Origin: Pancytospora philotis
Taxonomy: Eukaryota > Microsporidia
Direction of reading: 5' to 3'
NCBI GenBank assembly: GCA_023647555.1
Contig: JALRLY010000244.1
Span: 1 to 45,843 of the forward strand
Length of the DNA: 45,843 nucleotides
Under the pieces are notes generated by a model. It did no database searches, was not told the origin of the DNA, and saw only the letters and a list, made by a program, of their open reading frames with translations. Below are positions 4,222 to 41,592 of this stretch, piece by piece. The translations under genes and the position numbers were made by a program. The first letter of the stretch is position 1, and the number at the start of each line of letters is the position of its first letter.

Positions 4222-4236
4222 ATATTCCCTGAGATG
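4222..4236. repeat. left target-site duplication of LINE insertion
   Basis: ATATTCCCTGAGATG is repeated exactly at 6714-6728. Together they bracket the reverse-transcriptase element. The last three bases supply the ATG that opens the long RT frame. Confidence 0.9.
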
Positions 4237-13240: not shown

Positions 13241-14452
13241 ATGTCGCACGCTGCTACGAAGACTTCGTCGGTGATCAGCGTGGTGGTTTCGACCCTCGGC
13301 ACGGGCATTCTTTTCATGCCCGCGAGCTTCCACCAGCTCGGCTGGATGTACGCGGTCGGCGCGCTCGTCGCCATGGGGCTGCTCACGTTCTTCACGCTCT
13401 ACGCGATCGCGTACGCAGCCCTCACAGTGGAGTGCCTCCACGACGCGTCCTACCCCAAGATCGCGTCCACCTTTTCCAAGAAGCTGCGCGTCCTCGTGGA
13501 CTTGGCCATGATCTGCAGCAACATCGGCTGCTGTGTGTTCATCAGCCAGACGCTCGCGCGTGTAGCCTCGCGGATGCTCGTAGAATTCGGCGTTGGCATT
13601 GACCAGGAGATTCTGCGGAAGAGCGTGCTGCTGCTTGCGCTGCTGCTGGTCTGGTACTTCGGCAGCAAGGAGGATCTCAGCTCGCTGGCCTTCATGTCCA
13701 AGGTCAGCCTCGCTGGTGTGTTCTACTACCTGGCGCTGACCGTCTACTACGCGGCGGTGTACGGCAAGGACACCGCGCAGCTCGTGGCGCGCAGCACAGA
13801 CGATCTCAGCACCGGCTTTATCCGCTTTGTGTTTGCGTTGCACTGCCAGTTTTCGTTCCCGTCGATCTTCAGCGATATGGCTGACAAAAGCGCGGCGTCG
13901 GTCTCGCAGGTGTGCGCGCTCGGGTCCGCGGCGGTGGTGCTTGTGTACGCTGCCTCCGGCTTCTTCGGCTACAAGGCCGTGGGTGCCGAGATCGGTGGCC
14001 AGCAGATCCTGAGCGTGTTCAACGATCGCAACGGCAGCTTCATGCAGCATGTGATGAAGAGCTCCTTTGACAAATACGGTGTACTTCCGGCCATTGCGCA
14101 GTCGCTCTTCCTCTTCATATGGTTCGGTTTCCTGTGCTTCGCTACCGCTCCTACCATTCCGATCCTCCAGTCGTACCTCACGTTCAACGGCAAGCCGCTC
14201 TCTAAGAAGGTCACTTCTCTGCTGATTGCTATGGGCCTTTTCCTGTGCGGCATACCCCCGGCGCTGCCTCTCGACACGATCCTGAGCCTCAACACCGCGC
14301 TCTTCACGGCTGCACTTAGCTTTGTGTTCCCTTCCATCTTTATGATCTACGTGTCGCCCAAGCTGAGCGCGCGCAGCATAACTGCTTATGGAGTGATTCT
14401 GTTCAGTCTGCTTGTCAGTGGAAGCATTATCAAGAGTGCGCTGTTCAACTAG
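13241..14452 (+). CDS. AAAP-family amino acid transporter, copy 1
   Basis: This is a 403-aa polytopic protein with about 11 hydrophobic segments. The first (SVISVVVSTLGTGILFMPAS) carries the GTGIL-MP signature of amino acid/auxin permease transporters. Such carriers import host amino acids in microsporidia, which cannot make them. I chose ATG 13241 because the AAATTT-CCCC signal lies between it and the earlier ATG at 13220, and because the resulting length equals copies 2 and 3 (405 and 403 aa). A central block from about 13700 to 14115 is nearly the same as in copy 2 although the flanks differ. Confidence 0.9.
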   Translation: MSHAATKTSSVISVVVSTLGTGILFMPASFHQLGWMYAVGALVAMGLLTFFTLYAIAYAALTVECLHDASYPKIASTFSKKLRVLVDLAMICSNIGCCVFISQTLARVASRMLVEFGVGIDQEILRKSVLLLALLLVWYFGSKEDLSSLAFMSKVSLAGVFYYLALTVYYAAVYGKDTAQLVARSTDDLSTGFIRFVFALHCQFSFPSIFSDMADKSAASVSQVCALGSAAVVLVYAASGFFGYKAVGAEIGGQQILSVFNDRNGSFMQHVMKSSFDKYGVLPAIAQSLFLFIWFGFLCFATAPTIPILQSYLTFNGKPLSKKVTSLLIAMGLFLCGIPPALPLDTILSLNTALFTAALSFVFPSIFMIYVSPKLSARSITAYGVILFSLLVSGSIIKSALFN

Positions 14453-17628: not shown

Positions 17629-18846
17629 ATGGCCTCTAAAATTTCATCTGTAATGTCGATCGTCGTTTCCTCGTTCGGAACGGGCATTCTGTACATGCCG
17701 GCCAGCTTCCGGCTGCTCGGCTATGCGTATGCACTCGTCGCAATCTCGCTTGTCGGGCTTCTTACTTACTTTACGCTGTATGCGCTCGCGTACGCCGCGC
17801 TCGTCAAGGAGGGCGCGCAGGACGTCGCCTACGCAGGGCTCGCGGGGCTGTTCTCGCCGCGGCTCAGGCGGGCCGTGGAGGTGACGCTCGTCGGCAGCAA
17901 CGCGGGCATAGCCGTTGCGCTGGTGCGCTACTTCTGCCGCAGCGCCTCGAGCGCAAGCGCCGCACTCGGGATCAGTCCCGCCGCGGATACGCTCTACCGG
18001 CCGGTACTGTGTGCCGTGGCCGTCGCACTGGTGCTTATCTGCCGACGCGACACGGTGCGGATGCGCAAGCACATAGTGCGCACCAGTCTCGCTGGCGTAC
18101 TCTACTACCTGGCGCTGGCCGTCTACTACGCGCTGGCACACGGCAAGGACACCGCGCAGCTCGTGGCGCGCAGCACAGACGATCTCTGCGCGGGCTTCAT
18201 CCGTTTTGTGTTCGCGCTGCACTGCCAGTTCTCGTTCCCGTCGATCTTCAGCGAGATGGCTGACAAGAGCGCGGCGTCGGTCTCGCAGGTGTGCGCGCTT
18301 GCATCCGCGGCGGTGGTGCTTGTGTACGCGGCGTCGGGCTTCTTCGGCTACAAGGCCGTGGGTGCCGAGATCGGCGGGCAGCAGATCCTGGAGGTGTTCA
18401 ACGACCGCAGCAGCAGCTTCATGCAGCACGTGATGAAGAACTCGTTCGATAAATACGGTGTGCTCCCGAGCATCGCCCAGGCTTTCTTCCTCTTCATATC
18501 GTTCTGGTCTGCCGTCTTCCTCAGCATCCCCGTCGTGCAGACGCTGGCGTCGCTGTGCTTCTCTAAGGACAGCAAGCACGCGCGCGCCATCTGCGCAGCT
18601 GCGCTCGCCCTGGTGTACTTCGCAGCCAACTACTCGCTCGCCTTCAACACGGACACCGTGCTCAACGTCAGCGCGGCGCTCTTCACCGCGCCCCTCAGCT
18701 TCGGGTACCCAGCGCTCTTCATGATCCTCGTGTCGCGCCGCTGTTCCGCCGCAAGCGTCCTCTCGTACCTAATAATCGCCGCTACCGCTGCGCTCGCCAT
18801 CAGCATCCTGCATGGTACACTGTTAGCCCCTGAACCCAGTAGTTGA
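17629..18846 (+). CDS. AAAP-family amino acid transporter, copy 2
   Basis: This 405-aa polytopic carrier is paralogous to copy 1. The first helix carries SFGTGILYMPASFRLLGYAY. The central part (GKDTAQLVARSTDDL through FSFPSIF to SGFFGYKAVGAEIGGQQIL) is nearly identical to copy 1, while the N-terminal third and C-terminal quarter have diverged much more. The TGA stop overlaps an AATAAA signal (18846-18851), and a tRNA-Asp follows within 60 bp. Confidence 0.9.
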   Translation: MASKISSVMSIVVSSFGTGILYMPASFRLLGYAYALVAISLVGLLTYFTLYALAYAALVKEGAQDVAYAGLAGLFSPRLRRAVEVTLVGSNAGIAVALVRYFCRSASSASAALGISPAADTLYRPVLCAVAVALVLICRRDTVRMRKHIVRTSLAGVLYYLALAVYYALAHGKDTAQLVARSTDDLCAGFIRFVFALHCQFSFPSIFSEMADKSAASVSQVCALASAAVVLVYAASGFFGYKAVGAEIGGQQILEVFNDRSSSFMQHVMKNSFDKYGVLPSIAQAFFLFISFWSAVFLSIPVVQTLASLCFSKDSKHARAICAAALALVYFAANYSLAFNTDTVLNVSAALFTAPLSFGYPALFMILVSRRCSAASVLSYLIIAATAALAISILHGTLLAPEPSS

Positions 18847-20140: not shown

Positions 20141-20581
20141 GCGCCTGTTCTGGCGCGTTACGACCGCCTTGGGCTCTCGTATCGACGAAGTTCCACAGTT
20201 GCGTGGGTGCTATCTGTCGGTCTGCTAGCTGGGGTCTAATTGCGCAATAAAGGTCTTTAAACAGGTGTATGAGTTTAGCGGACTCCGACCTAGGAGCCAG
20301 CCTGCGAAGGCGTGTTTAGGCACGAAAAGATCGGATGCCGGCATCCTAAGAGGCCAGAGGATTTGGCTTGAAAGGGTTTAAATAGGAAGTATTTGCTCGT
20401 GCAGATGATGGATAATCCTCAGCATTATCTAGAATGGCGAAGACGAGCTATTTAAACGCCCTTCAAAAAAGGAGGCGACGACCAGATCATTACAGAAAAA
20501 GGAGGTGCGCAGAGGGCAGACCCCGGCAATTGGCTACAGACCCCTTAACCGTATATGAAAATTTTGCAGAAACGTCCCCTG
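20141..20581 (+). promoter_or_regulatory. upstream region of secreted family 1, copy 1
   Basis: From about 20410 to the ATG this region is highly similar to the sequence before copy 2 (about 22275-22441), including TTCAAAAAAGGAGGC, GATCATT and CAATTGGCTACAGACCCC. It ends in AAAATTTTGCAGAAACGTCCC before the ATG. A peptide frame across it is not preserved between copies, so the conservation is regulatory or due to recent duplication rather than coding. The rest of the region shows nothing recognisable. Confidence 0.6.
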
Positions 20582-22009
20582 ATGCTCAGATCTGTTTCGA
20601 ACTTGCTAGCGCTCTTTGCGACTGCATCAGCAGGGGCGATTAAAGGCAAAAGAGTAAGGGAGGGCGACGGAGTTATAAAGCAAATCTGCGCGATCGACGA
20701 AGACCATACTTTAACAGAAAAAGAAGATGTGAATGCGCTAGGTGTGATGTATAAGAGCGCTATGCGGAAGTTTGGCATCAAAATAGCAGCAAATGGTAGC
20801 ATTATAGATAAGAAGGGGTACGATATTACTTTCAAGAGAAACGTTATGGCGCGCGAAATTGCGGCTTGTATAATCTCCGCCGATGACCCTATAGAACTGG
20901 TCCACTCTTTATTTGAGAGGAAAAAGCGGTTATCACGGTACGTAATGCTTTCGAAGATCATCCGCGAGGTGAGTGAAGGCAGAATTACGGCCGCGACTCT
21001 ATTTTATAAGCTTGTGTTCCGCACTGGTGATCAGGGTGTGCGGGATAAGACCCAAGAGGTGCTTCTGGACCTGGACACAGAAATCGAACGGCAATGCAAT
21101 CTCTCGCCCAAAGAATTTCTTGACGACTTGCTTCTCCAGAGCACGCCTAGCGATGTCCTGGTGTACCTGCTCAGGGGCAAGTTCAATGATGTAAAGGCTG
21201 TACAAGCCAGGTTTAGCGAACTAGTAAGAATCGGGTGCAATGATGACGGCTCTAGCGTTATTGCTATGAGGAGGGTAGTAGGCTTGATCAACAAGCTTGA
21301 AGCGCCCGAATGCTCAGAAATCAACAAGAAATACGGCTTCCATGATATTATGCTCGAGATCTTGACATCACAAAATAGCCCGAGAAGTGTCAAGATGCTG
21401 GACGAGATTAAGCTGGGGGCTCCCAAGGAGTTGTCGAAGCATAATATCACGCCCGGAAAGACCGCATCTGCGAGTCCGCACTCGGTGCTCCAAAGCTTCA
21501 GGCAAATCCCGAGGGAAGAATATGACAAACCCGGCAATTCGGCGATTACACGATTGAAGAGCTACTTCCTCGAGACGGAGTTCGCGTATGAGCGGTGCTG
21601 CATGCTCAAAGACGCGCCCGAGCTGCTTCGCACTATGCCTGAGGAGGTGCTCTGCAGCATTCTCTTTAAGATCTATCAGAAGGAAACACCCACTGGAAAG
21701 CCTAGCGCAGAACAGCCTGCAGAGGTGCCCCATCAGGACAACCCCGCGGATATGCCCGCCACAGAAAACCCCACGAATGCACCAAATATGGAAGAGCCCG
21801 CGGAAGAGCTTGGTGCGGCAAAGCCCGCGAGCGATCTCGTCTTGCCCTTGCTACTTAACCATTCGTTTGAGGGCATTGATCTGGAAAGGACATTCAAGAT
21901 TCATGCTTTGGCGATTTGGTATGACGACACCAACTTCATGAGTGCACTGAACCCGTACGTTATGCACTCTCTGAGGCGCTGCCTGAACGTGGGGCAGGCT
22001 TCCCAGTAG
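20582..22009 (+). CDS. secreted family 1 protein, copy 1
   Basis: The 475-aa protein has a signal peptide (MLRSVSNLLALFATASAGA). The rest is helical and charged, with no membrane segments. A linker at about residues 370-415 is made of repeated P-A-E-x-P / N-P-A-x-M-P units, and is followed by a conserved end (LVLPLLLNHSFEGIDLERTF). I know no matching family. It forms a tandem array with copies 2 and 3. ATG 20582 is used because AAAATTTTGCAG...CCCCTG lies directly upstream in all three copies, although an earlier in-frame ATG exists at 20555. The GC content is lower than in the conserved genes. It probably faces the host or its vacuole. Confidence 0.8.
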   Translation: MLRSVSNLLALFATASAGAIKGKRVREGDGVIKQICAIDEDHTLTEKEDVNALGVMYKSAMRKFGIKIAANGSIIDKKGYDITFKRNVMAREIAACIISADDPIELVHSLFERKKRLSRYVMLSKIIREVSEGRITAATLFYKLVFRTGDQGVRDKTQEVLLDLDTEIERQCNLSPKEFLDDLLLQSTPSDVLVYLLRGKFNDVKAVQARFSELVRIGCNDDGSSVIAMRRVVGLINKLEAPECSEINKKYGFHDIMLEILTSQNSPRSVKMLDEIKLGAPKELSKHNITPGKTASASPHSVLQSFRQIPREEYDKPGNSAITRLKSYFLETEFAYERCCMLKDAPELLRTMPEEVLCSILFKIYQKETPTGKPSAEQPAEVPHQDNPADMPATENPTNAPNMEEPAEELGAAKPASDLVLPLLLNHSFEGIDLERTFKIHALAIWYDDTNFMSALNPYVMHSLRRCLNVGQASQ

Positions 22010-22441
22010 TCTGAATGTATCGGCCAGGCTCGCCTCCGGAAATAAGGTATTATATTCACTAAATAGCACTGCGCGATTATTTATTGCCTACGCGCATGTC
22101 CTGATCGGAAAGGCGTATTTTATGGAGCTGAAAGGCGCCCAGTCGGGAGCCAGCCGCGGAGACGTGTACAACCGCCCGAAAGGAGCGACTACGGAGGTCC
22201 GACATTTTTAAAGGTTGAGCGATTTTGCCCGAGAGTGCTTATAAGGCCAAGTGTTGCACCTGCACGAGGTTACCCTCAGCATTATTATTTAGAATAGCGG
22301 AGACAAGCCATCTGAAACGCCCTTCAAAAAAGGAGGCAACGATCAGATCATTTCAGCAAAAAGGAGCTATGCCAGGCCAAACACCGGCAATTGGCTACAG
22401 ACCCCTTAACGGTATTTGAAAATTTTGCAGCAATGCCCCTT
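22010..22441 (+). promoter_or_regulatory. spacer and upstream region of family 1, copy 2
   Basis: The 3' part of copy 1 continues into a conserved trailer (ATTCACTAAATAGCA). The half next to copy 2 repeats the conserved block described for copy 1 and ends in AAAATTTTGCAGCAATGCCCCTT. No separate gene is supported. Confidence 0.6.
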
Positions 22442-23878
22442 ATGCAAAGATCCGTTATGAAGTTGTTAGCGCTCTTTGCGACTGCATCAGCAGGGGCGAT
22501 TAAAGGCAAAAACGGGAGGGAAGGCGACGGGGTTATAGAGAAAATCTGCGCGATTGACGAAGACTATACTATAACAGAAAAAGAAGACGTGGTTGCGCTT
22601 GGTGGGATGTATAAGAACGTATTGCGGGCTAATGGTATCGTGTTGGCATCTGGCAATAAGATTATAAATGCGAGGGGGTACAAGATCACCTACCATAGAA
22701 ACCTCATGGCGCGGGAGATTGCGGCATGCACACTTGAGGCCGAAGATCCCATGGAGCGGATCGAAAAAACCTTCGAGCCGAACGAGCGCCTATCAAGGTA
22801 CGTAATGCTTGCGAAAATTATCCACGAGGTGAGTGAAGGCAGAATTACGGCCGCGAATCTGTTTTGTAAGCTTGCGTTCCCCAGCGTTGATCAGGGTATG
22901 CGGGATAAGACCCGAGAGGTGCTTCGACAGCTGAACACGGAAATAGAACGGCAATGCAACCTCTCGCCTGCAGAGTTTGTGAAGATTTTGACCTCTGATA
23001 GCTTTCCACAAGATATTCTGGTGTACCTGCTCAGGGGCCGGTTCAATGACGTAGGTGCTGTGCGAGCTAGGTTTAGCGAACTGGTAAGAATCGGGTATGT
23101 TGATTACGATTTAGCTAGTGTTGCTGCGAGTAAAATAACGGGTTTGATCAACAAGCTTGAAAAACCCGAATGCTCAGAAATCAGAAAGGAATACGGCTTC
23201 CGCGATATTGTGCTCGAGGTTCTAACTTCCCAGGATGACTCGAAGAGTGCCAAGATGCTGGGCGCGATTAAGCTGCTTGGCGTGACTCCCCAGAGAATGC
23301 TGGAGTACATCAAAACCAGAAACCACGCATTCGTGAGCCCGCGTATCATGATCCAGTGCTTCAAGCAAATCCCGAGGGAGGATTATGACAAACCCGGCAG
23401 TTTCGAGAATGCACAATTAAAGGGCTTCTTCCTCGAGACGGAGTTCGCGTATGAGCGGTGCCGCATGCTCAGAAACGAGCCCGAGCTGCTTCGCACTATG
23501 CCTGAGGAGGTGCTCTGCAGGATCCTCTTCAAGATCTATCAGAGGGAAAACCCCACCGGAAAGGCTAGCGCAGAACAGCCTGCGGAGGTGCCCAGCGCGG
23601 AAAACCCCGCGGTGGTACCCGAGATCGAGGACCCCACGGGCGTGCCCAGAATGGAAAAGTCTACGGAAAGGCTTAGTGTGGAGAGGCCCGCGAGCGATCC
23701 CGTCTTGCCCTTGCTACTAAGCCGGTCGTTTGAGGGCATTGATGGAGCCAGGGCCCTCAGGATTCATTTATTGGCGAACGATTTGGGCGACATAAATTTT
23801 TTCCATGCGTTACTTCCGTACGTTATGTATTCTCTGAGGCAGCAATATGGTGCGACGCAGATGCCACTAACGGCTTGA
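22442..23878 (+). CDS. secreted family 1 protein, copy 2
   Basis: This 478-aa paralog of copy 1 has the same architecture: signal peptide (MQRSVMKLLALFATASAGA), a charged helical body with shared blocks (LSRYVMLAKIIHEVSEGRIT; VYLLRGRFNDV; ARFSELVRIGY), a Pro-rich repeat linker (AEVPSAENPAVVPEIEDPTG), and a hydrophobic-rich end. The start at 22442 is homologous to copy 1; another ATG three codons earlier (22433) cannot be excluded. Function is unknown. Copy-to-copy differences are spread over the protein, while the signal peptide and the MPEEVLC-ILFKIYQ block are nearly fixed. Confidence 0.8.
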   Translation: MQRSVMKLLALFATASAGAIKGKNGREGDGVIEKICAIDEDYTITEKEDVVALGGMYKNVLRANGIVLASGNKIINARGYKITYHRNLMAREIAACTLEAEDPMERIEKTFEPNERLSRYVMLAKIIHEVSEGRITAANLFCKLAFPSVDQGMRDKTREVLRQLNTEIERQCNLSPAEFVKILTSDSFPQDILVYLLRGRFNDVGAVRARFSELVRIGYVDYDLASVAASKITGLINKLEKPECSEIRKEYGFRDIVLEVLTSQDDSKSAKMLGAIKLLGVTPQRMLEYIKTRNHAFVSPRIMIQCFKQIPREDYDKPGSFENAQLKGFFLETEFAYERCRMLRNEPELLRTMPEEVLCRILFKIYQRENPTGKASAEQPAEVPSAENPAVVPEIEDPTGVPRMEKSTERLSVERPASDPVLPLLLSRSFEGIDGARALRIHLLANDLGDINFFHALLPYVMYSLRQQYGATQMPLTA

Positions 23879-24300
23879 AAGTAGTGAGTAGGTTCGTTTT
23901 GGATGTAGAGACACCCAAATTCATTAAATAGCATTGCACGAATACTTATAGCCCATGTCTATCAGTCATTATTGGAGTTGCACATCTATAAAACCGAAGA
24001 CTCACGCCCGGGAGCCAGTCTGCGGAGGGCCGCATAACACCAGAAAAAATAAAACGATTGAAGGCCCATCACCCTTAAGAGCGGTGATATAATCTGAGAG
24101 TATTTAAATTGGGAGCTATTTACTTGCACGGAGAACAGACTGCGCTCAGTATTTGTTTAAATACCAGAGATCAGTCGTATGAATACGTTTCAAATAAAGG
24201 GGTAGTGGTCGGATCATTTTACGAAAAGGGGTATACCGGACGCTGTCAATGTGATGTTGCTCCTTCAACGTATTTAAAATTTTGCAGAAATGACCCCCTG
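23879..24300 (+). promoter_or_regulatory. spacer and upstream region of family 1, copy 3
   Basis: This holds the trailer of copy 2 (ATTCATTAAATAGCATTGC) and a more diverged version of the conserved upstream block, ending in TTAAAATTTTGCAGAAATGA and CCCCCTG before ATG 24301. An open frame extends upstream from 24301 to 24109, but it has no counterpart before copies 1 and 2. Confidence 0.55.
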
Positions 24301-25665
24301 ATGCTTAGATCAGTTATGAATGTGTTAATGCTCTGTGCAACGGCTGCTGCCGGGGCTATTAAAAGCAAAAGAGGAAGAGCAGGCGACGGGGTGATGGAGC
24401 TAATCGGCTCGATCGACGAAGACGCCGCTTTGACACTGATAGAAGACAAGTCCGCAATAATAGCAATGTATAACGTCGTAAAGCGGGCAAACGGTATCGT
24501 AATGGGCAGCGGTAATAAAATTATCAATGCAAGGGGGTTCAAGATCTCCCACGAAAGAAAAGTTATGGTGCGCGAGATTGCGGCGCGGATACTTGAGGCC
24601 GAGGATCCCATGGAACGGATCACAGAATCCTTCGAGCAGAACAACCGCCTAGCTAAGTACGTAATGCTCGAGAAGATTATCCGCGCGGTGAGTGAAGGCG
24701 AGATTACGGCTGCAATCCACTTTTCTAAGCTCGAGTTGCCCAGTAATGATAAGGATGTGCAGGAGAAGATCAAAGTGGTGCTTCGGCAGCTGGACACGGA
24801 AATCAAACGGCAATGCAGCCTCTCGCCTGCGGAGTTTGTGAACGCGTTGACCGAAGAGAGCCTTCCACAGGACATGCTGGTGTATCTGCTCAGGGGTAGG
24901 CTCAGTGACGCAAGTGCTGTACGAGCTAGGTTTAGCGAACTGGTGAGAATTGGGTGCAATGGTGATAATTCAAACAACGTTGCAGCAGAAAAAGTAACAG
25001 GCCTGATAAATAAGCTTGAAAAGCCTGAGTGCACATGGATCAGAGAGAAGTACGGCATCCGCAGTATCGTGCTCGAGGCCCTAGTTTCCCAGGATGACTC
25101 GAAGAGTGTCAAGATGCTGAGCGAGATTAAGCTGCTTGGCGGGACTGCCAAGGGGGTTTTGGAGTACATCAAATCTGGAAATCACGCATCGGCGAGCCCG
25201 CACTTGGTGCTCCAATGCTTCAAGCAGATCCCGAAAGTGGGATATGGCAAACCCGGTAGTTCGGATATCGTACAGCTGTATGGCTACTTCCTCGAGACGG
25301 AATCTGCGTATGAGCGGTGCCGCACGCTCAAAGATGAGCCCGAGTTGCTTCACATTATGCCTGAGGTGATGTTGTGCAACATTCTCTGTTATGTTTATGA
25401 AAAGGAAAAACTCATGGCGTGCGCTGGCGAGTCTGCGGAAGTGCCCAGCATGGAGAACCCTGCGGATGCATCTGGGCTCGATAACCCCACGAAGGTGCCG
25501 AGCGTGGAAAAGCCCACGTACGGACCCATCTTGCCCTTGTTGATTATGCTGGCGTTTAATGGAATTGATGAGGACAGGGCCGAAAGGATCCAAAAATTAT
25601 CGGCCGCGGTTGGCAGCGGTGACTTCTTTGTCGAATTACTTTCGTGCACTATGCACGCTTCATAA
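24301..25665 (+). CDS. secreted family 1 protein, copy 3
   Basis: This 454-aa paralog is the most diverged of the three. The signal peptide is MLRSVMNVLMLCATAAAGA, and the body shares the LAKYVMLEKIIRAVSEGEIT and VYLLRGRLSDA blocks. The Pro-rich linker is shorter (VPSMENPADASGLDNPTKVP). Unlike copies 1 and 2, it lacks the last approximately 20 residues of the conserved tail. ATG 24301 is chosen by alignment with copies 1 and 2 and by AAAATTTTGCAG upstream; an in-frame ATG at 24109 would bury the signal peptide. Function is unknown. Confidence 0.8.
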   Translation: MLRSVMNVLMLCATAAAGAIKSKRGRAGDGVMELIGSIDEDAALTLIEDKSAIIAMYNVVKRANGIVMGSGNKIINARGFKISHERKVMVREIAARILEAEDPMERITESFEQNNRLAKYVMLEKIIRAVSEGEITAAIHFSKLELPSNDKDVQEKIKVVLRQLDTEIKRQCSLSPAEFVNALTEESLPQDMLVYLLRGRLSDASAVRARFSELVRIGCNGDNSNNVAAEKVTGLINKLEKPECTWIREKYGIRSIVLEALVSQDDSKSVKMLSEIKLLGGTAKGVLEYIKSGNHASASPHLVLQCFKQIPKVGYGKPGSSDIVQLYGYFLETESAYERCRTLKDEPELLHIMPEVMLCNILCYVYEKEKLMACAGESAEVPSMENPADASGLDNPTKVPSVEKPTYGPILPLLIMLAFNGIDEDRAERIQKLSAAVGSGDFFVELLSCTMHAS

Positions 25666-25947
25666 CGGCACGCTGATTCAGGACAAGTGCATTCAACGGC
25701 CTGAAAGGCTAGTACGCCCATTTTAGGAGCAGAAAACCAAAAATTCATTAAACGGTATTACTTAACTATTTATGCTCTATGCCTCTTGGCTATGACTGGC
25801 ATGGCTTTTTATAGCACCAACGAGCGCATTTTCCCGCTCGCGCAGCACAGATGGCTCGTGAAATGCGGCGCATGCATTCCGATTGGCGGCCTCGCTGCAG
25901 CCACTCAAAAAATTCCGGTCGACAAATTTCGCGTAAAGGGGGCGCCC

Positions 25948-27159
25948 ATGCCGCTTGCGCTGACTAACACGCAGGCTGTTCTTGCGATCATCACGTCGAC
26001 ATTCGGCACGGGCATTCTCTTCATGCCCAGCGGCTTCGCGCAGCTCGGGTACGCCTACGCCTCGATGGTGCTCCTCGCGATGCCGGGGTGCATTAGCTTT
26101 TCGCTCTTCGCGCTCGCGTTCTGTGCCGTCATGACGGAGTCGACGAAGGGCGGCGCCTCGTACTCCGCGCTCGCCGGCGCGTTCTCGAAGCGCCTCAAGC
26201 TGCTAATCGATCTGTCGATGGTGGGCCGCAATCTTGGCATCATGCTAGTGCTCACCCGCTACTTTTGCGTGTACGCCGCGCGGGCGCTGCAGGCCTTTGG
26301 TGTGCCCGGGAGCACCGCCGTGCTGGAGCACCTGTGCCTCCTCTTCTTTGTGCTGCTCGTCGGGTACTACAGCATGAAGACCAGCCTGGCGTCGCTCGCG
26401 TTCATGCAGAAGATAAGCTTCGCGGGTGTGCTGCTGTACATCGTGCTGCTGTGCTATTACGCGCTTGCTGTTGGTGCCGCGCCGAAGCCCATGGTCGCTT
26501 TTGGCACTGTGCGCTCGTCGTATGTGATCAAGTTTGTCTTTGCGATGCACTGCCAGTACGGCTTCCTCAGCATCTTCAACGAAATGGCCGACCAGGGCCT
26601 GCAGAACGCGCTGGGCCTTCTGGTCGGCACGTCGATGGCCATCGCGTTTATCTACGGGTTCACCGGCTTCCTCGGCGGCTACGTGTTCGGCAGCCTGCTT
26701 GGCGACAAGCAGATTCTCGAGATCCTTATGGACAAGGCGCACCCGTGCATGCAGCGGCTCGCACTGCTCACGTTCGACAAAAAGAACCTGCTGCCGCTGC
26801 TGCCGTGCGTGTGCTTCCTGTTCATCTGGTTCAACTTTGTGATTATGGCGCTGTTCCCGATGTTCAAGGTCATCGAGGAGCGCGCCAGCTTCTGCAGCAG
26901 GAGCTCCGCACGGACGTTCGCGGTGCTCGCGGCCGTGGCCTACCTCGTGGGCGGCACGCTGATACCGGGCCTCCCGCTCAACAAGCTGCTGAGCTTCTGC
27001 TCGGCCGCGTTCACCAACCCTCTGAGCTTCCTCTATCCCGCTGTCTTCTTCCTGCTGGTGTCCACCAAGGTGTGGTATATGAACGCCTTTGCTGTTTTCT
27101 TGATATGCGCGAGTCTCTATCTGATGTTCAGCGTTTTCTACGAGATGGTGGTGTATTAG
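25948..27159 (+). CDS. AAAP-family amino acid transporter, copy 3
   Basis: This 403-aa polytopic permease opens with LAIITSTFGTGILFMPSGF. It shares the overall pattern of copies 1 and 2 (FVFAMHCQYGFLSIFNEMAD; GDKQILEILMD) but not their near-identical central block, so it is an older paralog. ATG 25948 is preferred over 25786: CAAATTTCGCGTAAAGGGGG and CGCCC lie right before it, and the resulting length equals copy 1. An AATAAA follows at about 27209. Confidence 0.88.
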   Translation: MPLALTNTQAVLAIITSTFGTGILFMPSGFAQLGYAYASMVLLAMPGCISFSLFALAFCAVMTESTKGGASYSALAGAFSKRLKLLIDLSMVGRNLGIMLVLTRYFCVYAARALQAFGVPGSTAVLEHLCLLFFVLLVGYYSMKTSLASLAFMQKISFAGVLLYIVLLCYYALAVGAAPKPMVAFGTVRSSYVIKFVFAMHCQYGFLSIFNEMADQGLQNALGLLVGTSMAIAFIYGFTGFLGGYVFGSLLGDKQILEILMDKAHPCMQRLALLTFDKKNLLPLLPCVCFLFIWFNFVIMALFPMFKVIEERASFCSRSSARTFAVLAAVAYLVGGTLIPGLPLNKLLSFCSAAFTNPLSFLYPAVFFLLVSTKVWYMNAFAVFLICASLYLMFSVFYEMVVY

Positions 27160-33810: not shown

Positions 33811-34162
33811 CTGGGTAAATTTTTTCACTGGTATTCGTTTGTGGCGCAAACGGCATTAGCGGTATCGCGGGAAGCGGGTGCATTCGATCGAGGGGTATAC
33901 AGCTGCTGCGGTGCTCCTAATAGATATGTGGCACTATCTGGGAGAGCGCATTGGTAGATTCTCGTATTCTCGGCGGTTTAGTTGAACTACTTCGCTGGGA
34001 AAATGCTCCAGTGACCTACTATGCAGGAAGTACATACTGTGCATGACAGTGTTGCTATATTTAATCTTGTCTTATGTGCTCATCGGGCTATTCTCTATAT
34101 TTTAAAGGCGCTAGATCAACTAGTAAGGTAAAGAGAAATTTTTTAAAGGTCGAATGCCCCGC
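33811..34162. other. shared upstream region of lysRS and family 2 copy 1
   Basis: This is a divergent intergenic stretch. The left end carries AAATTTTTTC (33818-33827, AAATTT signal of lysRS on the minus strand), and the right end AGAAATTTTTTAAAGG before family 2 copy 1. I recognise nothing in the middle. Confidence 0.5.
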
Positions 34163-35563
34163 ATGGTGTTCGCTAAGCTGCTCGCACACGCAGGTTGTGC
34201 TATACTGCTGTGCAAATATGCCTGCGCAACGAAGTGCAACGGAGCCAGTGTACCAGAGTCCGCAGATGCTGGCTCGGAGCGCACCTCAACTGGCAAGTAC
34301 AGCACAAGCACCATTCCAAGCCAGTGGATCCAATTTATCTTCGATCCCCTATATGATAAATGCAGGAGGTTGGACGAGAAACGGACCGACGAAACCAGGC
34401 TCACTTCTTTTGCGTACAACGGGAAGCTCGATAGCGCGGACAGGCAGCAAAAGCTGCAGTTCGTTTTGCTGTTCGTGTTCAGCAGCAGCAACCCGCTCGA
34501 GCAGTTCACGGAGCTGCTAAAGGAGATGCCATACGGTGTCATGGAGCGCCTCTACGACGAGCTAACCTCGTTCCACTACACCGGTAGCCTGGCGGCCTAT
34601 CTGCTGAAGAACTTCGAAATGGGCCATGCTGCAGAGAACGCCCTGTTCAAGAAAGGAGATGAGTGCCGCAGGGATCTAGAAAGGCTCGTGCTCGCGGAGA
34701 TAAGGCCTCCCACTTGCGTCATGGCGGTTGAGACCCTGATGGAGAGAGCGGACGTGAACGGGCCGCTGGATGCCTTTATGCTTCTGGACTGGCAGCTGTT
34801 CCAAGACCCAGACCCGAGCAAAAGCGGCTTTGCCAACCATCTAATGAGCATCCTGTGCGCCGTCGTAGTAAGAGAGGTCATCATTCCCGGCAGCAGTCTG
34901 TATGAGAGAATTGAGAAGTACATCAAGCCGCTGATGCAGATGATGTTCGTTTATTATAGCAAGGATGCGAAGGCCGTGCTGCGCTGCAAATGGGCGATGA
35001 TCACCTGCGCGAGCTCTATCGAAGATGATGCAATTTTTAGAATGTTCAGCTGGAGAGAGTATAAGAAGGATCCCAAGCCGACAGCGGCCGAATTTTTTGA
35101 GCATACTGCAATTGGCATCGATCACAGCCTTTATTTTGTCATCAATTTTATCCACCACTGCTTCAGAAGGGAAGTCCGGAACTACGCTCTGCCCGCTGAT
35201 GTGAACGATGAGCTCGCCAACTACTTCATCGAAGATGTTCCCGACACCGATAAACCGACGCGACTCGAGCTGTTCATCAGAGACCGCGCATTATTGCCAA
35301 AGCTGAACTGCGAAACGCTTTACCGGATACTGGAGGTGTATTATGAGAACATTGCGGACGTGTATGACGGGCACATTATGGAGGAGTATGACGAGAACAA
35401 TGATACATACAGAAAAAGAGTAGACATTTTGTCCAAGTTTCTCGAGTCCATATCCTTCATCAAACTCGCATTTATGGAAAAACTAGCGAGGGAAAAGAAA
35501 AATGAGCTGCTAGAGGAATTTATCTATGCAGTAAAGCAGTCATGTGTGGCTCAAAAATCCTAA
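34163..35563 (+). CDS. secreted family 2 protein, copy 1
   Basis: The 466-aa product starts with a cysteine-containing signal peptide (MVFAKLLAHAGCAILLCKYA). The long helical body has no membrane segment. Shared family blocks are QKLQFVLLFVFSSSNPLEQF, PYGVMERLYDELTS, CKWAMITCASSIEDDAIFRM and YFVINFIHHCFRR. Conserved cysteines occur in CRRLD, CRRDLE, RCKWAMITC and HHC. I recognise no family. An ATG three codons earlier (34154) also exists; 34163 is homologous to copy 2. The TAA stop is embedded in AATAAA. It heads a three-gene tandem array. Confidence 0.8.
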   Translation: MVFAKLLAHAGCAILLCKYACATKCNGASVPESADAGSERTSTGKYSTSTIPSQWIQFIFDPLYDKCRRLDEKRTDETRLTSFAYNGKLDSADRQQKLQFVLLFVFSSSNPLEQFTELLKEMPYGVMERLYDELTSFHYTGSLAAYLLKNFEMGHAAENALFKKGDECRRDLERLVLAEIRPPTCVMAVETLMERADVNGPLDAFMLLDWQLFQDPDPSKSGFANHLMSILCAVVVREVIIPGSSLYERIEKYIKPLMQMMFVYYSKDAKAVLRCKWAMITCASSIEDDAIFRMFSWREYKKDPKPTAAEFFEHTAIGIDHSLYFVINFIHHCFRREVRNYALPADVNDELANYFIEDVPDTDKPTRLELFIRDRALLPKLNCETLYRILEVYYENIADVYDGHIMEEYDENNDTYRKRVDILSKFLESISFIKLAFMEKLAREKKNELLEEFIYAVKQSCVAQKS

Positions 35564-35567
35564 TAAA
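35562..35567 (+). terminator. AATAAA overlapping stop of family 2 copy 1
   Basis: TAA at 35561-35563 overlaps AATAAA. Confidence 0.55.
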
Positions 35568-35913
35568 AGAACTATTTCTTTATATGACTGAATACTTCTT
35601 TGATTTTTGGGCGGAGAGCAGGCCTCATGATCGAGTTCAATAGAGAGTGTAAACTTCATCTTGGCTTTCTTCAACAAATGGCAAATACCTCATTCTTATC
35701 CTAATTAAAAAATGGCTACCGTTTGGATAGCTAGCGACGACGAAATTTATTTGCTTTGCGCAGCCATTCTCGAGCATTCAGTCGGCGGCTACCAAGCTGG
35801 ATTAGGCCCATAATGCGCGCTCATTGGCCTACTCCTTTATGGGCCCCTTTAGATGTCCGCTCGCTCACCGATATTAAAACGGGCAGAAAATATTCAGAAA
35901 TCAACTGCCCCTC
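35564..35913. other. spacer between family 2 copies 1 and 2
   Basis: This stretch is AT-rich at its left. The last 50 bp contain AAAATATTCAGAAATCAACTG followed by CCCCTC before the ATG of copy 2, a weaker version of the start-proximal signal. No gene was seen. Confidence 0.45.
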
Positions 35914-37347
35914 ATGGTGTTCGCTAAGCTGTTTGACCACGCAGCTTGTGCCATACTGCTATGCAAATATGCCCGTGCGACCGAGCCAGATAGCGCCGAA
36001 GTCCCGATGTCTGCGGATGATGGCCCACAATGCGCTCTAAAGGACGATAACAGCAAGCGTGATGTTTTAAATCACTGGATTCGGGATCTTTTCAACTCCC
36101 TATATGATACATGCCGGGCGTTGGTCACATCCCGGCCCGGCGGGCCTAGGCTCGTTTCTTCGGCGGATAATGAGAAGCTCGACCGCGCCAACAGGGTGCA
36201 AAAGATGCAGTTCGTTTTACTGTTCGTGTTCAGCAGCAGCAACCCGCTCGATCAGTTCAGGGAGCTGCTTCCAGAGATGTCGTACGGCGCCATGGAGAAG
36301 CTCTACGAGGAGCTAACTTCGTCTCGTCTTGCTGCTAGATTGCTGTCTTATCTGCGGAAGAACTTCAAAATGGGGTTTGCTGCCGCGAACTCCTTGTGTC
36401 AAATAGGAGTCAGATGCCGCAGGAATCTAGAAAAGATTTTGCTCACAGAAATAAGGCCTTCAACCAGCACCCCTGCGATAGAAACCTTGAGGGCGAAAGC
36501 AGACGTGAACAGGCCAGTGGACGCCTTCATGATTCTGGACTGGCATATGCGCCAGGATGCGGATCCGGTCAAAGGCAACTTCGCCGGCCATTTAGCAGGC
36601 GTTTTGCAGTACCTGCTGACGAGCGAGGATACCATCGGGGATAGTCTGGCTGACAGAATCGAAAAGTACATCAAGCCAATGATGGGAAAGATGCTCGAGT
36701 ATCATAATGAGAGTGAGGATGATGTAATGCGTTGCAAATGGCTGATGATCACCTGCGCGAGCACTATCGAAGACGATGCAATTTTCAAAATGTTCAGCTG
36801 GTCAAAATTCAGGGAGGACCCTAAGCCGACAGCAGCCGAGTTTCTGGGGCACGCTGCAATTGGTGCCGACCGCAGCCTTCATTTTGTCATCAATTACATC
36901 CACCACTGCTTTAGAAGAGATAAAAGGGATTTTCCCATGCCTTCCGATGTGGACGATGAGCTCGCCAACTACTTTATAGAAGATGCGCCCACAATAGAAG
37001 CCCCCGACTCCGATGAGCAGACGAGGCTCGAGCTGATCACGCAGGATCCAGCGTTATTATCAAAACTGAACTCTAAAACGCTTTACCGGATAATGGAAGT
37101 GTACTGCGAGAACACCATGGACGTATACTATGAAAACATCAAGGAAGTATACGAGGAGAATATTGCTCTGTACAGAAAAAGGATAAACATTCTGGCAGAG
37201 TTTTTGAACGCTATTTTCGGATGTCCTGTAAAATTTAGGTACATGGAGTCTTTAGCGAGGGAAAAGAAGGATGTTTTCCTATTGAACTATATTTATGAGG
37301 TTAAACAGCGATATTCGCCGCAACAATTTGAAGAAATCGTTCAATAA
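35914..37347 (+). CDS. secreted family 2 protein, copy 2
   Basis: This 477-aa paralog has signal peptide MVFAKLFDHAACAILLCKYA, and the body follows copy 1 closely (QFVLLFVFSSSNPLDQF; CKWLMITCASTIEDDAIFKMF; HFVINYIHHCFRRDKRDFPM). A stretch with YYENIKEVYEENIALYRKR repeats an acidic/Tyr pattern of the copy 1 C-terminus. No family is recognised. The TAA stop is inside AATAAA (37343-37348). Confidence 0.8.
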   Translation: MVFAKLFDHAACAILLCKYARATEPDSAEVPMSADDGPQCALKDDNSKRDVLNHWIRDLFNSLYDTCRALVTSRPGGPRLVSSADNEKLDRANRVQKMQFVLLFVFSSSNPLDQFRELLPEMSYGAMEKLYEELTSSRLAARLLSYLRKNFKMGFAAANSLCQIGVRCRRNLEKILLTEIRPSTSTPAIETLRAKADVNRPVDAFMILDWHMRQDADPVKGNFAGHLAGVLQYLLTSEDTIGDSLADRIEKYIKPMMGKMLEYHNESEDDVMRCKWLMITCASTIEDDAIFKMFSWSKFREDPKPTAAEFLGHAAIGADRSLHFVINYIHHCFRRDKRDFPMPSDVDDELANYFIEDAPTIEAPDSDEQTRLELITQDPALLSKLNSKTLYRIMEVYCENTMDVYYENIKEVYEENIALYRKRINILAEFLNAIFGCPVKFRYMESLAREKKDVFLLNYIYEVKQRYSPQQFEEIVQ

Positions 37348-37348
37348 A
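37343..37348 (+). terminator. AATAAA overlapping stop of family 2 copy 2
   Basis: The stop TAA at 37345-37347 lies wholly inside AATAAA. Confidence 0.6.
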
Positions 37349-37580
37349 TATTCCATCTTGTGACTGAATGCACCTTTATATTCAGATAGACAACGGGCCT
37401 CAGTTGGCTGGTAGTATAAGTTGCTCGCTATATATACGCAGTGTGGCTATTTTTTAGTATCTCAGTCACGGCAATACCACACAGTTGAGATTTGAGCTTG
37501 TACTTGTCGACCCGTCCTTCTGTTTACATTTTGTGGCGGCTTGCTGGCTCGACTATAAAACAGGTACCAAAATTTTTACC

Positions 37581-39026
37581 ATGCCCGTTCGCAAGATAGT
37601 GGCAAAGCTGACCGCATTCATTATCTCGACTCTATTGCTGTGCTGCCTTATAACTGCAACTAGGCAAGGTGATGCCCGAGAGCCAACAGTCGCTCGGGCC
37701 GACTCAATGCCTCGCGAGACGTCCAACCCACAGCCTTATAACCCCTGGGCGCATTCGGTGATCCGTCTCTATGATGCCTTGTATTCGCACTGTGAGGCAG
37801 TAAACGCAAAACGCCCAGCGGAATGCAGGGTGCATGCTTCAGAGGACAAAGCGCAGGACCCGGCGATCTATCGCAGGCAGAAGCAGTATTTTATCTTGCT
37901 GGTCGTGCTCCTGAGCGAGGACCCCTTGGGATTCCTGGAACAACTGATTCCGTTGATGTCGTATGGATGCCTCGACCTCATGCATAAGGAGGTCAGTCCG
38001 GACTTCAATGTTAGGCTTGTATCAAAAATGCTAACGGGCTGGAGGGTAAGCGAGAGCGCGGAGTATCGGATCAGAGGTGTATTCGACCACTACCTGCTGC
38101 TGATCAGAATGCGTCTGGGCGTTGAGATCGCCGCCGTAGTGAGCATGCCCGTGCAGCATGCTCTAAAGAGAGGGGCCATTTTGAGCGAGCCCGTCGAGGT
38201 ATTTCAGGTTCTGGCTCTACGAATGGGCGGTTTGAGCGTCACGTCGAACAATGACCTGCCTCTTATCATAAGCGCTGTGCTGGAAAGCACCGACTTGAAG
38301 GAGACGAGCATGCGCGGCAAAATCGACAATTTTATCAGACCGCTGATGCGGCATATTCTAAACCACTGCGACGGCAATAAGCGAGACATCCTATATTGCA
38401 AATACCTGATGATGTACTGCACGACTAGGGTTTCAGATTGCGCAGTTTTCCGGATGTACAGCTGGGACGAATTCAGAAGAAGCCCCACGCCCAATATTGC
38501 AATGTTTATAGAGAGTGCTGCTAAAAATGGTATAAAACCGTATTACATAATTAATCTCCTCCACACTTACTATATCAAAAGGGAATCGCGTGTTCACTAT
38601 ATCAAAAAGGAATCGCGCGTGCCCGAGAGCGAGATCTGTGCTCTCAGCAAATATTACTGGATAATCCTAGACTCTGCCACAAAACAGAGCAATTACGGCG
38701 ATGATCCTATCCACGAGGATCTAATAGAGCGTCTGCCAGCTAATACTGCCTACCAGCTGGTCTGCTCGTATTATAAAATTGCGATGACTGATTTCACCGC
38801 GTTTGCAGAAAAGAAAATGAAAATATTTGCATTGCTGAGCTTATTCAGGCCAAATATACTCGCTAAAGTTTCAAACCTTGTCCATAATAAGTGCCCTGGC
38901 CCTCTGTTGCAGTCATGTATAAAACTCGAATGGACAAGGCGCGCAACCAGCTCCCTGGCAGCGAGAGATGAGCGCGTTTGCGAGCCTGGGCCTAGCAGAA
39001 AAAGGAGGATTTCCTCAGAAGAGTAA
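37581..39026 (+). CDS. secreted family 2 protein, copy 3 (diverged, basic tail)
   Basis: The 481-aa distant paralog starts with MPVRKIVAKLTAFIISTLLL, a signal peptide. Family blocks are still visible: RQKQYFILLVVLLSEDPLGF, IPLMSYGCLDLMHKE, CKYLMMYCTTRVSDCAVFRM and YYIINLLHTYY. It carries a 27-bp in-frame tandem duplication (38572-38625, YIKRESRVH / YIKKESRVP) and ends in a basic tail SRKRRISSEE that the other copies lack. ATG 37581 is chosen because CAAAATTTTTACC lies directly before it; an earlier ATG at 37485 is less likely. The function is unknown. Confidence 0.78.
   Translation: MPVRKIVAKLTAFIISTLLLCCLITATRQGDAREPTVARADSMPRETSNPQPYNPWAHSVIRLYDALYSHCEAVNAKRPAECRVHASEDKAQDPAIYRRQKQYFILLVVLLSEDPLGFLEQLIPLMSYGCLDLMHKEVSPDFNVRLVSKMLTGWRVSESAEYRIRGVFDHYLLLIRMRLGVEIAAVVSMPVQHALKRGAILSEPVEVFQVLALRMGGLSVTSNNDLPLIISAVLESTDLKETSMRGKIDNFIRPLMRHILNHCDGNKRDILYCKYLMMYCTTRVSDCAVFRMYSWDEFRRSPTPNIAMFIESAAKNGIKPYYIINLLHTYYIKRESRVHYIKKESRVPESEICALSKYYWIILDSATKQSNYGDDPIHEDLIERLPANTAYQLVCSYYKIAMTDFTAFAEKKMKIFALLSLFRPNILAKVSNLVHNKCPGPLLQSCIKLEWTRRATSSLAARDERVCEPGPSRKRRISSEE
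38572..38625 (+). repeat. 27-bp in-frame tandem duplication
   Basis: TATATCAAAAGGGAATCGCG plus seven bases is followed by TATATCAAAAAGGAATCGCG plus seven bases, with four differences. The duplication is confined to copy 3 of family 2. Confidence 0.7.
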
Positions 39027-39260: not shown

Positions 39261-39587
39261 ATGATCCCAACGGCTCGCTTGCACGAAAGCATCCTTGTGC
39301 CCAAGCCCATGTACTTCAGCACCCTGGCGCCGGCAATGGAGAATGTAAACAGCTACAAGGTGTACGCCCTGGCGCTTGTAGATGCGAAGGTAAAGCCGAA
39401 TACGTATCGGGTGCGCTACGAGGCGAATACCGCTGTCATCTGCACCGATCGCGCCCTGGCCGTCGGCGCCTGGATTCGCTTCTGCGGCGTTGTCGACAAA
39501 GGCGTCATAGCGTGCGAGTATGTTGAGGCCTTGGACAACGTCGACACCAACCTACTGGTCAGGTGCATACAGAAGCTGGGTGCCTAG
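39261..39587 (+). CDS. TEN1-like OB-fold protein (CST complex candidate)
   Basis: The 108-aa protein has an OB-fold pattern. Its landmarks run in the same order as in animal/fungal TEN1: VPKPMYFSTLAP near the start, SYKVYALALVD (first strand), VICTD, VGAWIRFCGVVDKG, then VEALDNVDTNLLVRCIQK (the closing helix). TEN1 is the small subunit of the CST complex that binds telomeric single-stranded DNA with STN1. The identity rests on motif order seen by eye; RPA3 is an alternative small OB protein. No AAATTT is obvious before the ATG. Confidence 0.5.
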   Translation: MIPTARLHESILVPKPMYFSTLAPAMENVNSYKVYALALVDAKVKPNTYRVRYEANTAVICTDRALAVGAWIRFCGVVDKGVIACEYVEALDNVDTNLLVRCIQKLGA

Positions 39588-39653: not shown

Positions 39654-40049
39654 ATGAGAGTGGTGGTGCAGCGCGTGGCGAGCGCCTCGGTCGTTCACGA
39701 GGGCGCGGAAATAGCGGCCATCGGAAAGGGCCTCGTCTTGTACATAGGCGTCTCCAAGGGCGAAGAGCCGGGTGCTGCCGAGTGGCTCATCCAGAAAATC
39801 CGCGGCACGAAAGAGGCCGGCGACGAGGTGCTGTGCCTCAGCCAGTTCACGCTTTTTGCTGCGTTCAAGGGGCCAAAGCCGTCGTTCCACAGGGCAGAGA
39901 GCCCGGAGACGGCGCGGGCGCAGTTTTACAGCATTGTCGAAGCGGTCCGCGGCGCATTCGAGTGCAAGGTCGCAAATGGTATTTTTGGCACAAAGCTCGA
40001 GATTAAGTTCAGCGGCAGCAGCATCCAGCCGCTTGTGCTCGAGCGGTAG
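39654..40049 (+). CDS. D-aminoacyl-tRNA deacylase paralog A (SQFTL kept, Gly-Pro lost)
   Basis: The 131-aa protein starts MRVVVQRVASASV, the canonical DTD start, so ATG 39654 is used (CAAATTATTTCAG and CCCAG lie before it). It keeps SQFTL (residues 63-67) and a GPKPSF loop (73-78) lining the active site. A segment of about 15 residues before SQFTL is missing. Where DTDs end in NDGPVT with the chirality-sensing Gly-cisPro, this protein has SGSSIQP (120-126). DTD removes D-amino acids from mischarged tRNA. On its own this copy should lack the cross-subunit Gly-Pro; see paralog B at 41242-41592. Confidence 0.88.
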   Translation: MRVVVQRVASASVVHEGAEIAAIGKGLVLYIGVSKGEEPGAAEWLIQKIRGTKEAGDEVLCLSQFTLFAAFKGPKPSFHRAESPETARAQFYSIVEAVRGAFECKVANGIFGTKLEIKFSGSSIQPLVLER

Positions 40050-40307
40050 GCCTGGGTGTTGTTGCTGTGTGCGTTGGCTCCAAGCGTTAGTGCGACGGGC
40101 TGTGCTCATCTCAGTTTTAAATTATGAGCAGCTAAATAAACCTCGTATATTCAAGCATCTGCATATTCATATTCATTTCTGTCCGCAATTGAGCTGCTAC
40201 ACCATGCTGCGAGGTTTATTGACCGGTCGCAGGTAGCTGAAAATTCCCCTTTTTCCCATTGGACCGCGGGGCGCGATTAAAATTTGACGGGACCGCCGCG
40301 CCCCTTT

Positions 40308-41072
40308 ATGGCCAGATATGTCCACGAGAGAGACACGCTTGGCCGCAAGCTCACGTCTCTCGTTATTCTTCTCATGCTCGTCTGCACCGCCTTCTGGTTC
40401 ATCCTGTGCGACGTGTCGCTCGCGCTGCGGATCCTCTGGCTGATCACGATGCCGATGCTGCTGCTTTCCTTCATCCAGCTTACGCTCTCGGACCCGGGCC
40501 GCATGCCGAAGCGGGAGTTCGGCGACGAGCGCGCCGGCGGCATGCTGCGCCTCTCCGACGGCACTGTCGTGCACACCAACTCCGAGCTGCTGCTGCGCGA
40601 CGTCATGATGAACGTTGACGGCGTCGACACCATGAGCAGGCGCTTCATGTGCACGTGCTGCCGGATGTTCAAGACCTACCGGACCGCGCACTGCTCCTTC
40701 TGCGACGCCTGCGTGCTGGAGAAGGACCACCACTGCTTCTGGCTCTCCAACTGCGTCGGCCGGAACAACCTGCGCTGCTTCATCATTTTTCTGCTGAGCA
40801 TCGGCGGCATGTGGTGCCTGACCGCGCACGCCTTCACCATGCTGTTCAGGCGCCATCACTTTTCCATCTACGTTGGGATCGGCCTGTACTCGATGGGCTG
40901 CGCCATCTGGCTGTTCTTTCTCTACTACATGTTCCTCGTCTCCCGCGGCATCACATCGCGGGAGTACCTGAGCGGATGCCACCACAAGGGCTTCATCGGT
41001 CTCTCACGGATGGTGCGCGCCTGCCTCACATTCCGGCCGCCGCTCACGTGCACGAATGCTTTTGTAGTTTAG
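40308..41072 (+). CDS. DHHC-type palmitoyltransferase
   Basis: The 254-aa protein has two N-terminal membrane helices (about 16-34, 39-60), a DPG motif (62-64), the cysteine-rich domain (CTCCRMFKTYRTAHCSFCDA) with DHHC at residues 140-143 and NCVGRNN after it, then two C-terminal helices and a TTxE-like region. It matches the family better than the 10371 gene. It S-acylates proteins at Golgi or ER membranes. ATG 40308 is the first true ATG, with AAAATTTGACGGGACCGCCG and CGCCCCTTT upstream. Confidence 0.93.
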   Translation: MARYVHERDTLGRKLTSLVILLMLVCTAFWFILCDVSLALRILWLITMPMLLLSFIQLTLSDPGRMPKREFGDERAGGMLRLSDGTVVHTNSELLLRDVMMNVDGVDTMSRRFMCTCCRMFKTYRTAHCSFCDACVLEKDHHCFWLSNCVGRNNLRCFIIFLLSIGGMWCLTAHAFTMLFRRHHFSIYVGIGLYSMGCAIWLFFLYYMFLVSRGITSREYLSGCHHKGFIGLSRMVRACLTFRPPLTCTNAFVV

Positions 41073-41241
41073 TCCGGCGCTAATTGCTGTAGAGGTGCTG
41101 TTTGCTATAGAGATGCTATTCAGTATAGATGCTGCTGGCATGGCATATGCGCACCACATAATAAAGAGTTTAATATATCTTTTAAGGCCTGTAGCAGTTT
41201 ATCACGCAAATTTTTATTTTTCCCGTATCATTAATTTTAAC

Positions 41242-41592
41242 TCAAAAATCCAGGATCATGGTGCACGGCCCATCGTTGATGAACTCAATGTGATCGCCGT
41301 CTTTGTATACTTCAGGGTGAAAACCTGCCCTGCCCATAGCATCAGCTAGACCGTCCACGCTATAGCCGCTGCTGCTTGTAACGATTACTCGCCCTGCTGT
41401 CTGGCTGACATTTTCCGTCCAGCCGTTCCACAGCCTCAGCGAAGCGATTTTAGTGGCTGCTTTATTCAGCACGGCATCGGTCTCTGCTCCTGATAGCGTG
41501 GCGTACAGGATAATACCAGGTCCTGACTGCGCCTTCCCACCGTGCTCTGGCGCAAACTGCGCATCTGCGAACCTCTGGATGACTATCTGCAT
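41242..41592 (-). CDS. D-aminoacyl-tRNA deacylase paralog B (Gly-Pro kept, SQFTL lost)
   Basis: The 116-aa protein starts MQIVIQRFADAQF, and SGPGIILYATLSG follows as in DTDs. It retains the RLW segment (RIF in bacteria) before the central strand, and ends HIEFINDGPCTMILDF, so the Gly-cisPro motif NDGPCT (106-111) is intact. The SQFTL motif is replaced by SSSGY (73-77), and the RPSF loop plus following helix are deleted. It is therefore the mirror image of paralog A. AAAATTTGGCACATC lies 25-30 bp upstream of the ATG on its strand, and AATAAA (TTTATT at 41213-41218) follows the stop. Not ATD: the PQATL motif is absent. Confidence 0.8.
   Translation of the reverse strand: MQIVIQRFADAQFAPEHGGKAQSGPGIILYATLSGAETDAVLNKAATKIASLRLWNGWTENVSQTAGRVIVTSSSGYSVDGLADAMGRAGFHPEVYKDGDHIEFINDGPCTMILDF

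Follow-up and report, generated by a model that had tools for sequence, protein, structure and literature searches.

A conserved Gly-Pro-less DTD and its possible Gly-Pro-bearing partner in the microsporidian Pancytospora philotis

Can two neighboring genes, each carrying a different part of the active site of D-aminoacyl-tRNA deacylase (DTD), provide a single deacylase between them? The question is raised by a locus of Pancytospora philotis, located in a window of 45,843 nucleotides (the whole stretch of DNA that was analyzed), which is one contig of an assembly of 3.68 Mb in 83 contigs. The canonical DTD (DTD1, known from E. coli, Plasmodium, and human) is a homodimer with a cross-subunit Gly-cisPro, and its site is composed of the SQFTL motif of one monomer and the NXGP(V/F)T motif of the other (PMC3845328). 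The same source describes this Gly and Pro as invariant throughout the DTD sequences and shows them to be essential. In detail, G149A and P150A abolish the activity of the Plasmodium enzyme (PfDTD), and mutants of the E. coli enzyme lead to the same conclusion (PMC3845328).

Two DTD genes of one locus

The genes of the locus are, in order, paralog A (39654..40049, + strand, 131 aa), a DHHC palmitoyltransferase (+), paralog B (41242..41592, − strand, 116 aa), and a SacI-domain gene (−). Both paralogs exceed the curated cut-off of the Pfam family PF02580 (25 bits), A with 93.8 bits (E 1.6e-26) and B with 34.9 bits (E 2.3e-8, match over residues 3–73), and they are thus members of the DTD family at the level of the fold. 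The NCBI equivalog TIGR00256 has a cut-off of 101.5 bits and both score below it (A 69.3, B 20.5). The same applies to three further proteins of the A family described below (59.8, 67.1, and 71.9 bits; four of the ten family members were scanned).

Paralog A resembles the canonical DTDs in its pocket. It carries SQFTL (residues 63–67, 39840..39854, +), a KPSF loop (residues 75–78, 39876..39887, +), and GxFG (residues 109–112, 39978..39989, +), corresponding to the Phe137-Gly138 of PfDTD that stacks on the adenine (PMC3845328). It differs from them in having no Gly-Pro, as GSSIQP (residues 121–126, 40014..40031, +) stands in the place of NDGPVT. Compared with 37 canonical DTDs (drawn from 110), A retains SQFTL, Pro76, Ser77, Ala87, and Phe111-Gly112, and is devoid of both NDGPVT and the FxDxxGxMN loop (14 alignment columns). 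At Lys75 of A, the 37 canonical rows have Arg, but the human and Plasmodium enzymes have Lys. The structural model of A has a pLDDT of 89.

Paralog B shows the reverse. It shares with the canonical DTDs the Gly-Pro, as NDGPCT (residues 106–111, 41260..41277, −), and Arg7 (41572..41574, −), the counterpart of the arginine which holds the Gly-cisPro of the same monomer (PMC5802732). It also has a eukaryote-like loop (LRxW/F...W..NV), which reads LRLWNGWTENV (residues 52–62, 41407..41439, −), aligns with LRLWNNDNKTWDKNV of PfDTD and LRVFEDESGKHWSKSV of the human enzyme, and is absent from A. Unlike the canonical DTDs, B has no recognizable pocket. In an ungapped reading, SQFTL is replaced by SSSGY (residues 73–77, 41362..41376, −); MAFFT instead places a small insertion there. 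Against the 37 canonical rows, B retains Arg7, part of the loop (LRLW...W..NV), and NDGPCT, and is without SQFTL, the PSF loop, GxFG with its adenine-stacking Phe, and much of the second helix.

An earlier note on this DNA, made from the letters alone, had given the same coordinates, strands, and motifs for both genes, that is, SQFTL, PSF, and GSSIQP for NDGPVT in A, and NDGPCT, SSSGY for SQFTL, and a lacking PSF loop in B. All of these are correct; the absent FxDxxGxMN loop of A had not been mentioned. The note had also considered that a third canonical DTD elsewhere in the genome would speak against its reading. The PF02580 profile gave two candidates across the 3.68 Mb, both inside the window (A and B), the B sequence as query added none in this assembly, which may be incomplete, and the DTD2 profile (PF04414) matched nothing in the whole assembly at E ≤ 1. 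The third canonical copy was rejected on these searches.

The family of paralog A

Besides itself, the sequence of A retrieved four close relatives and a single canonical DTD. With the alignment of these five (A and its four relatives) as the query, 171 proteins were found, the best 120 of which were considered. The ten best rows of the 171 (P0001–P0005 and P0008–P0012, A included) are referred to here as the A family, and P0008 belongs to Pancytospora epiphaga, which, like the gene content of the window, suggests a microsporidian source. The nine relatives are 40–55% identical to A, and the Gly-Pro is absent in all nine as it is in A. None of the ten rows has a Pro at motif column 124, and all of them have SQFTL. 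The region of the FxDxxGxMN loop is short in nine rows, and P0012 has its own insertion there.

The pocket of the family is strictly conserved. All 11 pocket columns (the five of SQFTL plus Lys75, Pro76, Ser77, Ala87, Phe111, and Gly112) are invariant in the ten rows, and they are found among only 26 invariant columns out of 131 (hypergeometric 2.4e-9), a figure to be read with the columns being hand-picked from papers and the alignment, and with a somewhat biased invariance, since the search by shared five-residue words favors rows which keep conserved blocks such as SQFTL. The residues K, P, S, and F78 of the KPSF loop are each invariant in 10/10. By contrast, the Gly-Pro motif has no invariant column among its six. 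Among the matches listed, the other 110 DTDs (B left out) have NxGPxT in 109 cases and SQFTL in 108. A single otherwise canonical DTD (P0044) has NDEPVT for NDGPVT, which may be an error.

In a tree of 25 rows (the A family, B, 12 canonical DTDs, and two database chains), the ten A-family rows form one clade with a support of 100/99. The most distant rows, P0010–P0012, have long branches, and the tool warned that the joining of P0011 and P0012 may be false. A new C-terminus with ER or EK is common to seven of the ten rows, and three of these have a further tail.

No relative emerged when GTDB contigs were scanned for patterns of the ten rows, and a scan of viral contigs with five rows gave none either. 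A prokaryotic origin of A or B was not retained; such short-pattern scans are blind to distant relatives.

According to these alignments, A is a member of a conserved DTD subfamily without Gly-Pro and with the tRNA-pocket residues intact, and this is the firmest new result of the analysis. The existence of such a subfamily breaks the invariance rule published for DTD (PMC3845328). It also alters the description of A in the earlier note as a half-degenerate gene: a form which is common to nine relatives, with an invariant pocket, is not the half-decayed gene of one genome.

In PfDTD, Phe40, Val86, Met141, and Ile143 are said to hold Pro150 in place (PMC3845328), and they align with Tyr30, Leu62, Leu115, and Ile/Val117 of the A family. 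The first three are identical in all ten rows, position 117 is Ile or Val, and all four are still hydrophobic. The canonical residues are Leu or Phe at 30, Val at 62 (31/37, otherwise Ile), and Met at 115 (37/37). Tyr30, Leu62, and Leu115 can be read either as a fit to the Pro of another partner or as a filling of the space that it vacated.

In a first alternative, A would act alone as a homodimer in no need of Gly-Pro, with its pocket remodeled by Tyr30, Leu62, and Leu115 and its chirality relaxed or altered, and B would be an unrelated or lineage-specific by-product. A may then be a tRNA deacylase which chooses chirality in another way, or does not choose at all. We regard this as doubtful, though a serious contender. 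In its favor, the clade has invariant residues near the site of the Pro which are peculiar to it, and seven of the ten rows share the new C-terminus. A precedent is found in ATD (Animalia-specific tRNA deacylase), a DTD paralog in which the chirality was altered by a change at the Gly-Pro motif, and which has a Gly-transPro and relaxed chirality (PMC5802732). ATD keeps its Gly-Pro, in trans, along with the signatures PQATL and TNGPYTH (PMC5802732), whereas A has SQFTL and no Gly-Pro. Both ATD signatures are absent from A, as they are from B with its NDGPCT. Against this alternative, point mutations in the Gly-Pro inactivate two DTDs (PMC3845328), and the six columns which would have to take over the role of the Gly-Pro hold no invariant residue. 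The same alternative leaves the NDGPCT and Arg7 kept by B unexplained.

The status and origin of paralog B

The NDGPCT of B lies outside its Pfam match and was for this reason scored separately. With a profile of the canonical C-terminus B obtains 14.0 bits, and 20,000 shuffles of B reach 13.7 at most; with a shorter profile of 21 columns, one of 20,000 shuffles equals B. The motif has Cys where the published NxGP(V/F)T has V or F.

Several lines of evidence bear on whether B is a gene. A run of 116 codons with no stop has a probability of 0.008 at the base composition of B under a plain random model. The own frame of B is the best of the six in codon usage, yet among 359 coding pieces it ranks no higher than the 17th percentile, and its score is matched by 16% of 1,795 off-frame pieces. 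The model of B has a pLDDT of 84 and a pTM of 0.76, built on an alignment of DTDs, which favors that fold. Given the open frame, the model, and the low codon score, B is likely but not certain to be a gene. The other two frames of its strand contain several stops each, and no SQFTL, PSF, or GxFG. The absent loop and Gly-Pro of A are also absent from its relatives. A frameshift or assembly error is therefore unsupported for either paralog, and the view of the earlier note that both ORFs are intact holds.

An AAATTT is located 35 bases upstream of B. In 106 genes of the window and of further loci (L004–L023), this hexamer is commoner near starts: counted upstream from the start codon, three successive 20-base bins contain it in 19, 12, and 3 genes. 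It is a possible start-proximal signal, and these frequencies in the three upstream bins mean that it says little as promoter support for B.

The word-based search among 5.8 billion proteins found no relative of B but B itself, and the searches of its own genome and of prokaryote (GTDB) contigs found only B and none, respectively. This is weak evidence, since at 35% identity a partner should on average have fewer than one five-residue word in common with B, and partners below about 40% identity were probably missed (both are estimates). As far as it goes, the lack of detected relatives among these proteins and prokaryote contigs would suit an A which acts alone.

Regarding its origin, B was aligned globally with 14 canonical DTDs and with the ten members of the A family. 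The z values lie between 5.2 and 12.1 for the former (8.9 for human, 8.0 for Plasmodium) and between 1.9 and 5.1 for the latter; the two ranges nearly touch. On this basis, B looks like a diverged DTD of canonical type rather than a late copy of A, and a recent duplication producing A and B is unsupported. Its branch in the tree (6.08 changes per column) is too long for B to be placed.

Tyr30 and Glu37 are common to the A family and B, in positions where the 37 canonical rows have Leu or Phe and Asp (36/37), respectively. The two residues may point to a common origin or to a common interface.

A second alternative is that B is a decaying relic or non-catalytic, that A serves in another tRNA-binding role, and that the proofreading of D-aminoacyl-tRNA was lost. 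The loss of SQFTL, the PSF loop, and the adenine-stacking Phe from B is in agreement with it, as are the very long branch, a GC3 of only 0.58, and the weak codon signal. It is also in line with the relaxed editing of Microsporidia, for which a review describes the loss of the LeuRS editing domain and, in Vavraia culicis, 5.9% mistranslation at leucine positions (PMC7017984). In the same species, the valine positions show 7.5% mistranslation with the editing domain intact (PMC7017984). Nevertheless, we find the relic unlikely: B has 116 codons with no stop or frame break, a model with a pLDDT of 84 (favored by the DTD alignment), and a kept NDGPCT, the pocket of A is strictly conserved over ten rows, and the genome has two matches to PF07973, a family of editing domains. 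The LeuRS editing domain PF13603 has no match in the genome, and this was not used as evidence because that model is of the bacterial type.

A possible composite site

The earlier note had proposed that A and B lost opposite halves of the enzyme. At the named motifs this was confirmed: out of 17 site residues picked from papers, nine are kept by A and lost by B, six are lost by A and kept by B, one is kept by both, and one is lost by both (Fisher p = 0.0037, with the residues hand-chosen and placed in a few linked motifs). It does not extend to the whole protein. Over the 59 columns conserved in the 37 canonical rows, both keep 9, A alone keeps 24, B alone keeps 9, and both lose 17, so that the losses show no complementarity there (p = 0.58).

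The best explanation, which we put forward tentatively, is that A and B are obligate partners in a heterodimer whose single deacylation site is a composite of the two. In such a pair, A would bind the 3′-terminal adenosine of the tRNA and position the ester via SQFTL, Ala87, and Phe111-Gly112. The Gly-Pro of B (residues 108–109), held by its own Arg7, would enter the pocket of A and, once inserted, would reject L-amino acids. The second site, made from the pocket of B and the C-terminus of A, would be dead. Dimerization, Gly-Pro insertion, activity, and substrate of the pair are all inferred from sequence.

The published mutants allow predictions for each combination. A homodimer of A should be inactive, as G149A and P150A abolish the activity of PfDTD and A has no Gly-Pro (PMC3845328). 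A homodimer of B should also be inactive: in PfDTD, Phe137 stacks on the adenine, and both F137A and A112F abolish activity (PMC3845328). The SSSGY of B alone is no proof of a dead site, because PfDTD keeps full activity when Gln88 or Thr90 is changed and loses only part of it in S87A (PMC3845328). It is rather the absence of GxFG and of the Ala112 region which should kill the own site of B. By the published rules, only A with B would combine a complete site, with the pocket of A and the Gly-Pro of B held by the Arg7 of B.

The proposed heterodimer has evidence on both sides. The conservation of the pocket throughout a family with no Gly-Pro strengthens the half of the idea which concerns A, the positions that would lie beneath the Pro of the partner are hydrophobic in A, and the assembly yielded no DTD-family gene other than these two. 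Against the pair, the searches above detected no relative of B, whereas A has nine, and the codon signal of B is weak. In addition, the pocket of A may no longer fit a Gly-Pro, as it has Leu62 and Leu115 where the canonical rows have Val/Ile and Met. A broader form of the proposal is that, in a microsporidian clade, DTD was split into two obligate subunits, a pocket subunit without Gly-Pro (A) and a fast-evolving donor of Gly-Pro without a pocket (B), which would make it the first heterodimeric DTD, with one proofreading site built from both; this we consider conceivable, and hold a shade more loosely than the pairing itself.

As a general kind, there are enzymes built as heterodimers in which one site is composite or one is dead. 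The division of labor proposed for the paralogs A and B resembles them. Among DTDs, no heterodimeric or Gly-Pro-less form was found in the literature searched, as judged by titles and the beginnings of abstracts. In PMC11295145, the "heterodimer" is PheRS, and in PMC7373986, the microsporidian passage concerns shortened synthetases and DTD appears in the references only. A gene of Nosema ceranae named D-tyrosyl-tRNA deacylase is tabulated among expressed genes (PMC13273367).

If B supplies the Gly-Pro, a symmetric enzyme would here have been divided naturally in two, with one half bringing the pocket and the other the specificity. Either answer bears on how parasites with reduced genomes keep or abandon the quality control of translation.

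Other features of the window were noted mostly by eye. Just upstream of A, an ORF of 108 aa (39261–39587, +) reads like a small OB-fold protein by eye, and its best Pfam match (DUF1757, E 0.094) is unconvincing. Two long ORFs (1878–3692 and 4234–6501, both +) resemble polymerases of retroelements, the first of the LTR type (with ambiguous bases) and the second of the LINE type. Three similar transporter-like ORFs with the look of amino-acid permeases (13220–14452, 17629–18846, and 25786–27159, all +) lie within 14 kb and are apparently a local family expansion. Two more local families, with three long ORFs each, are located at 20555–25665 and 34154–39026 (+). The two of these ORFs which were scanned had no firm Pfam match, and the four which were measured have a GC3 of 0.58–0.66, lower than most of their neighbors.
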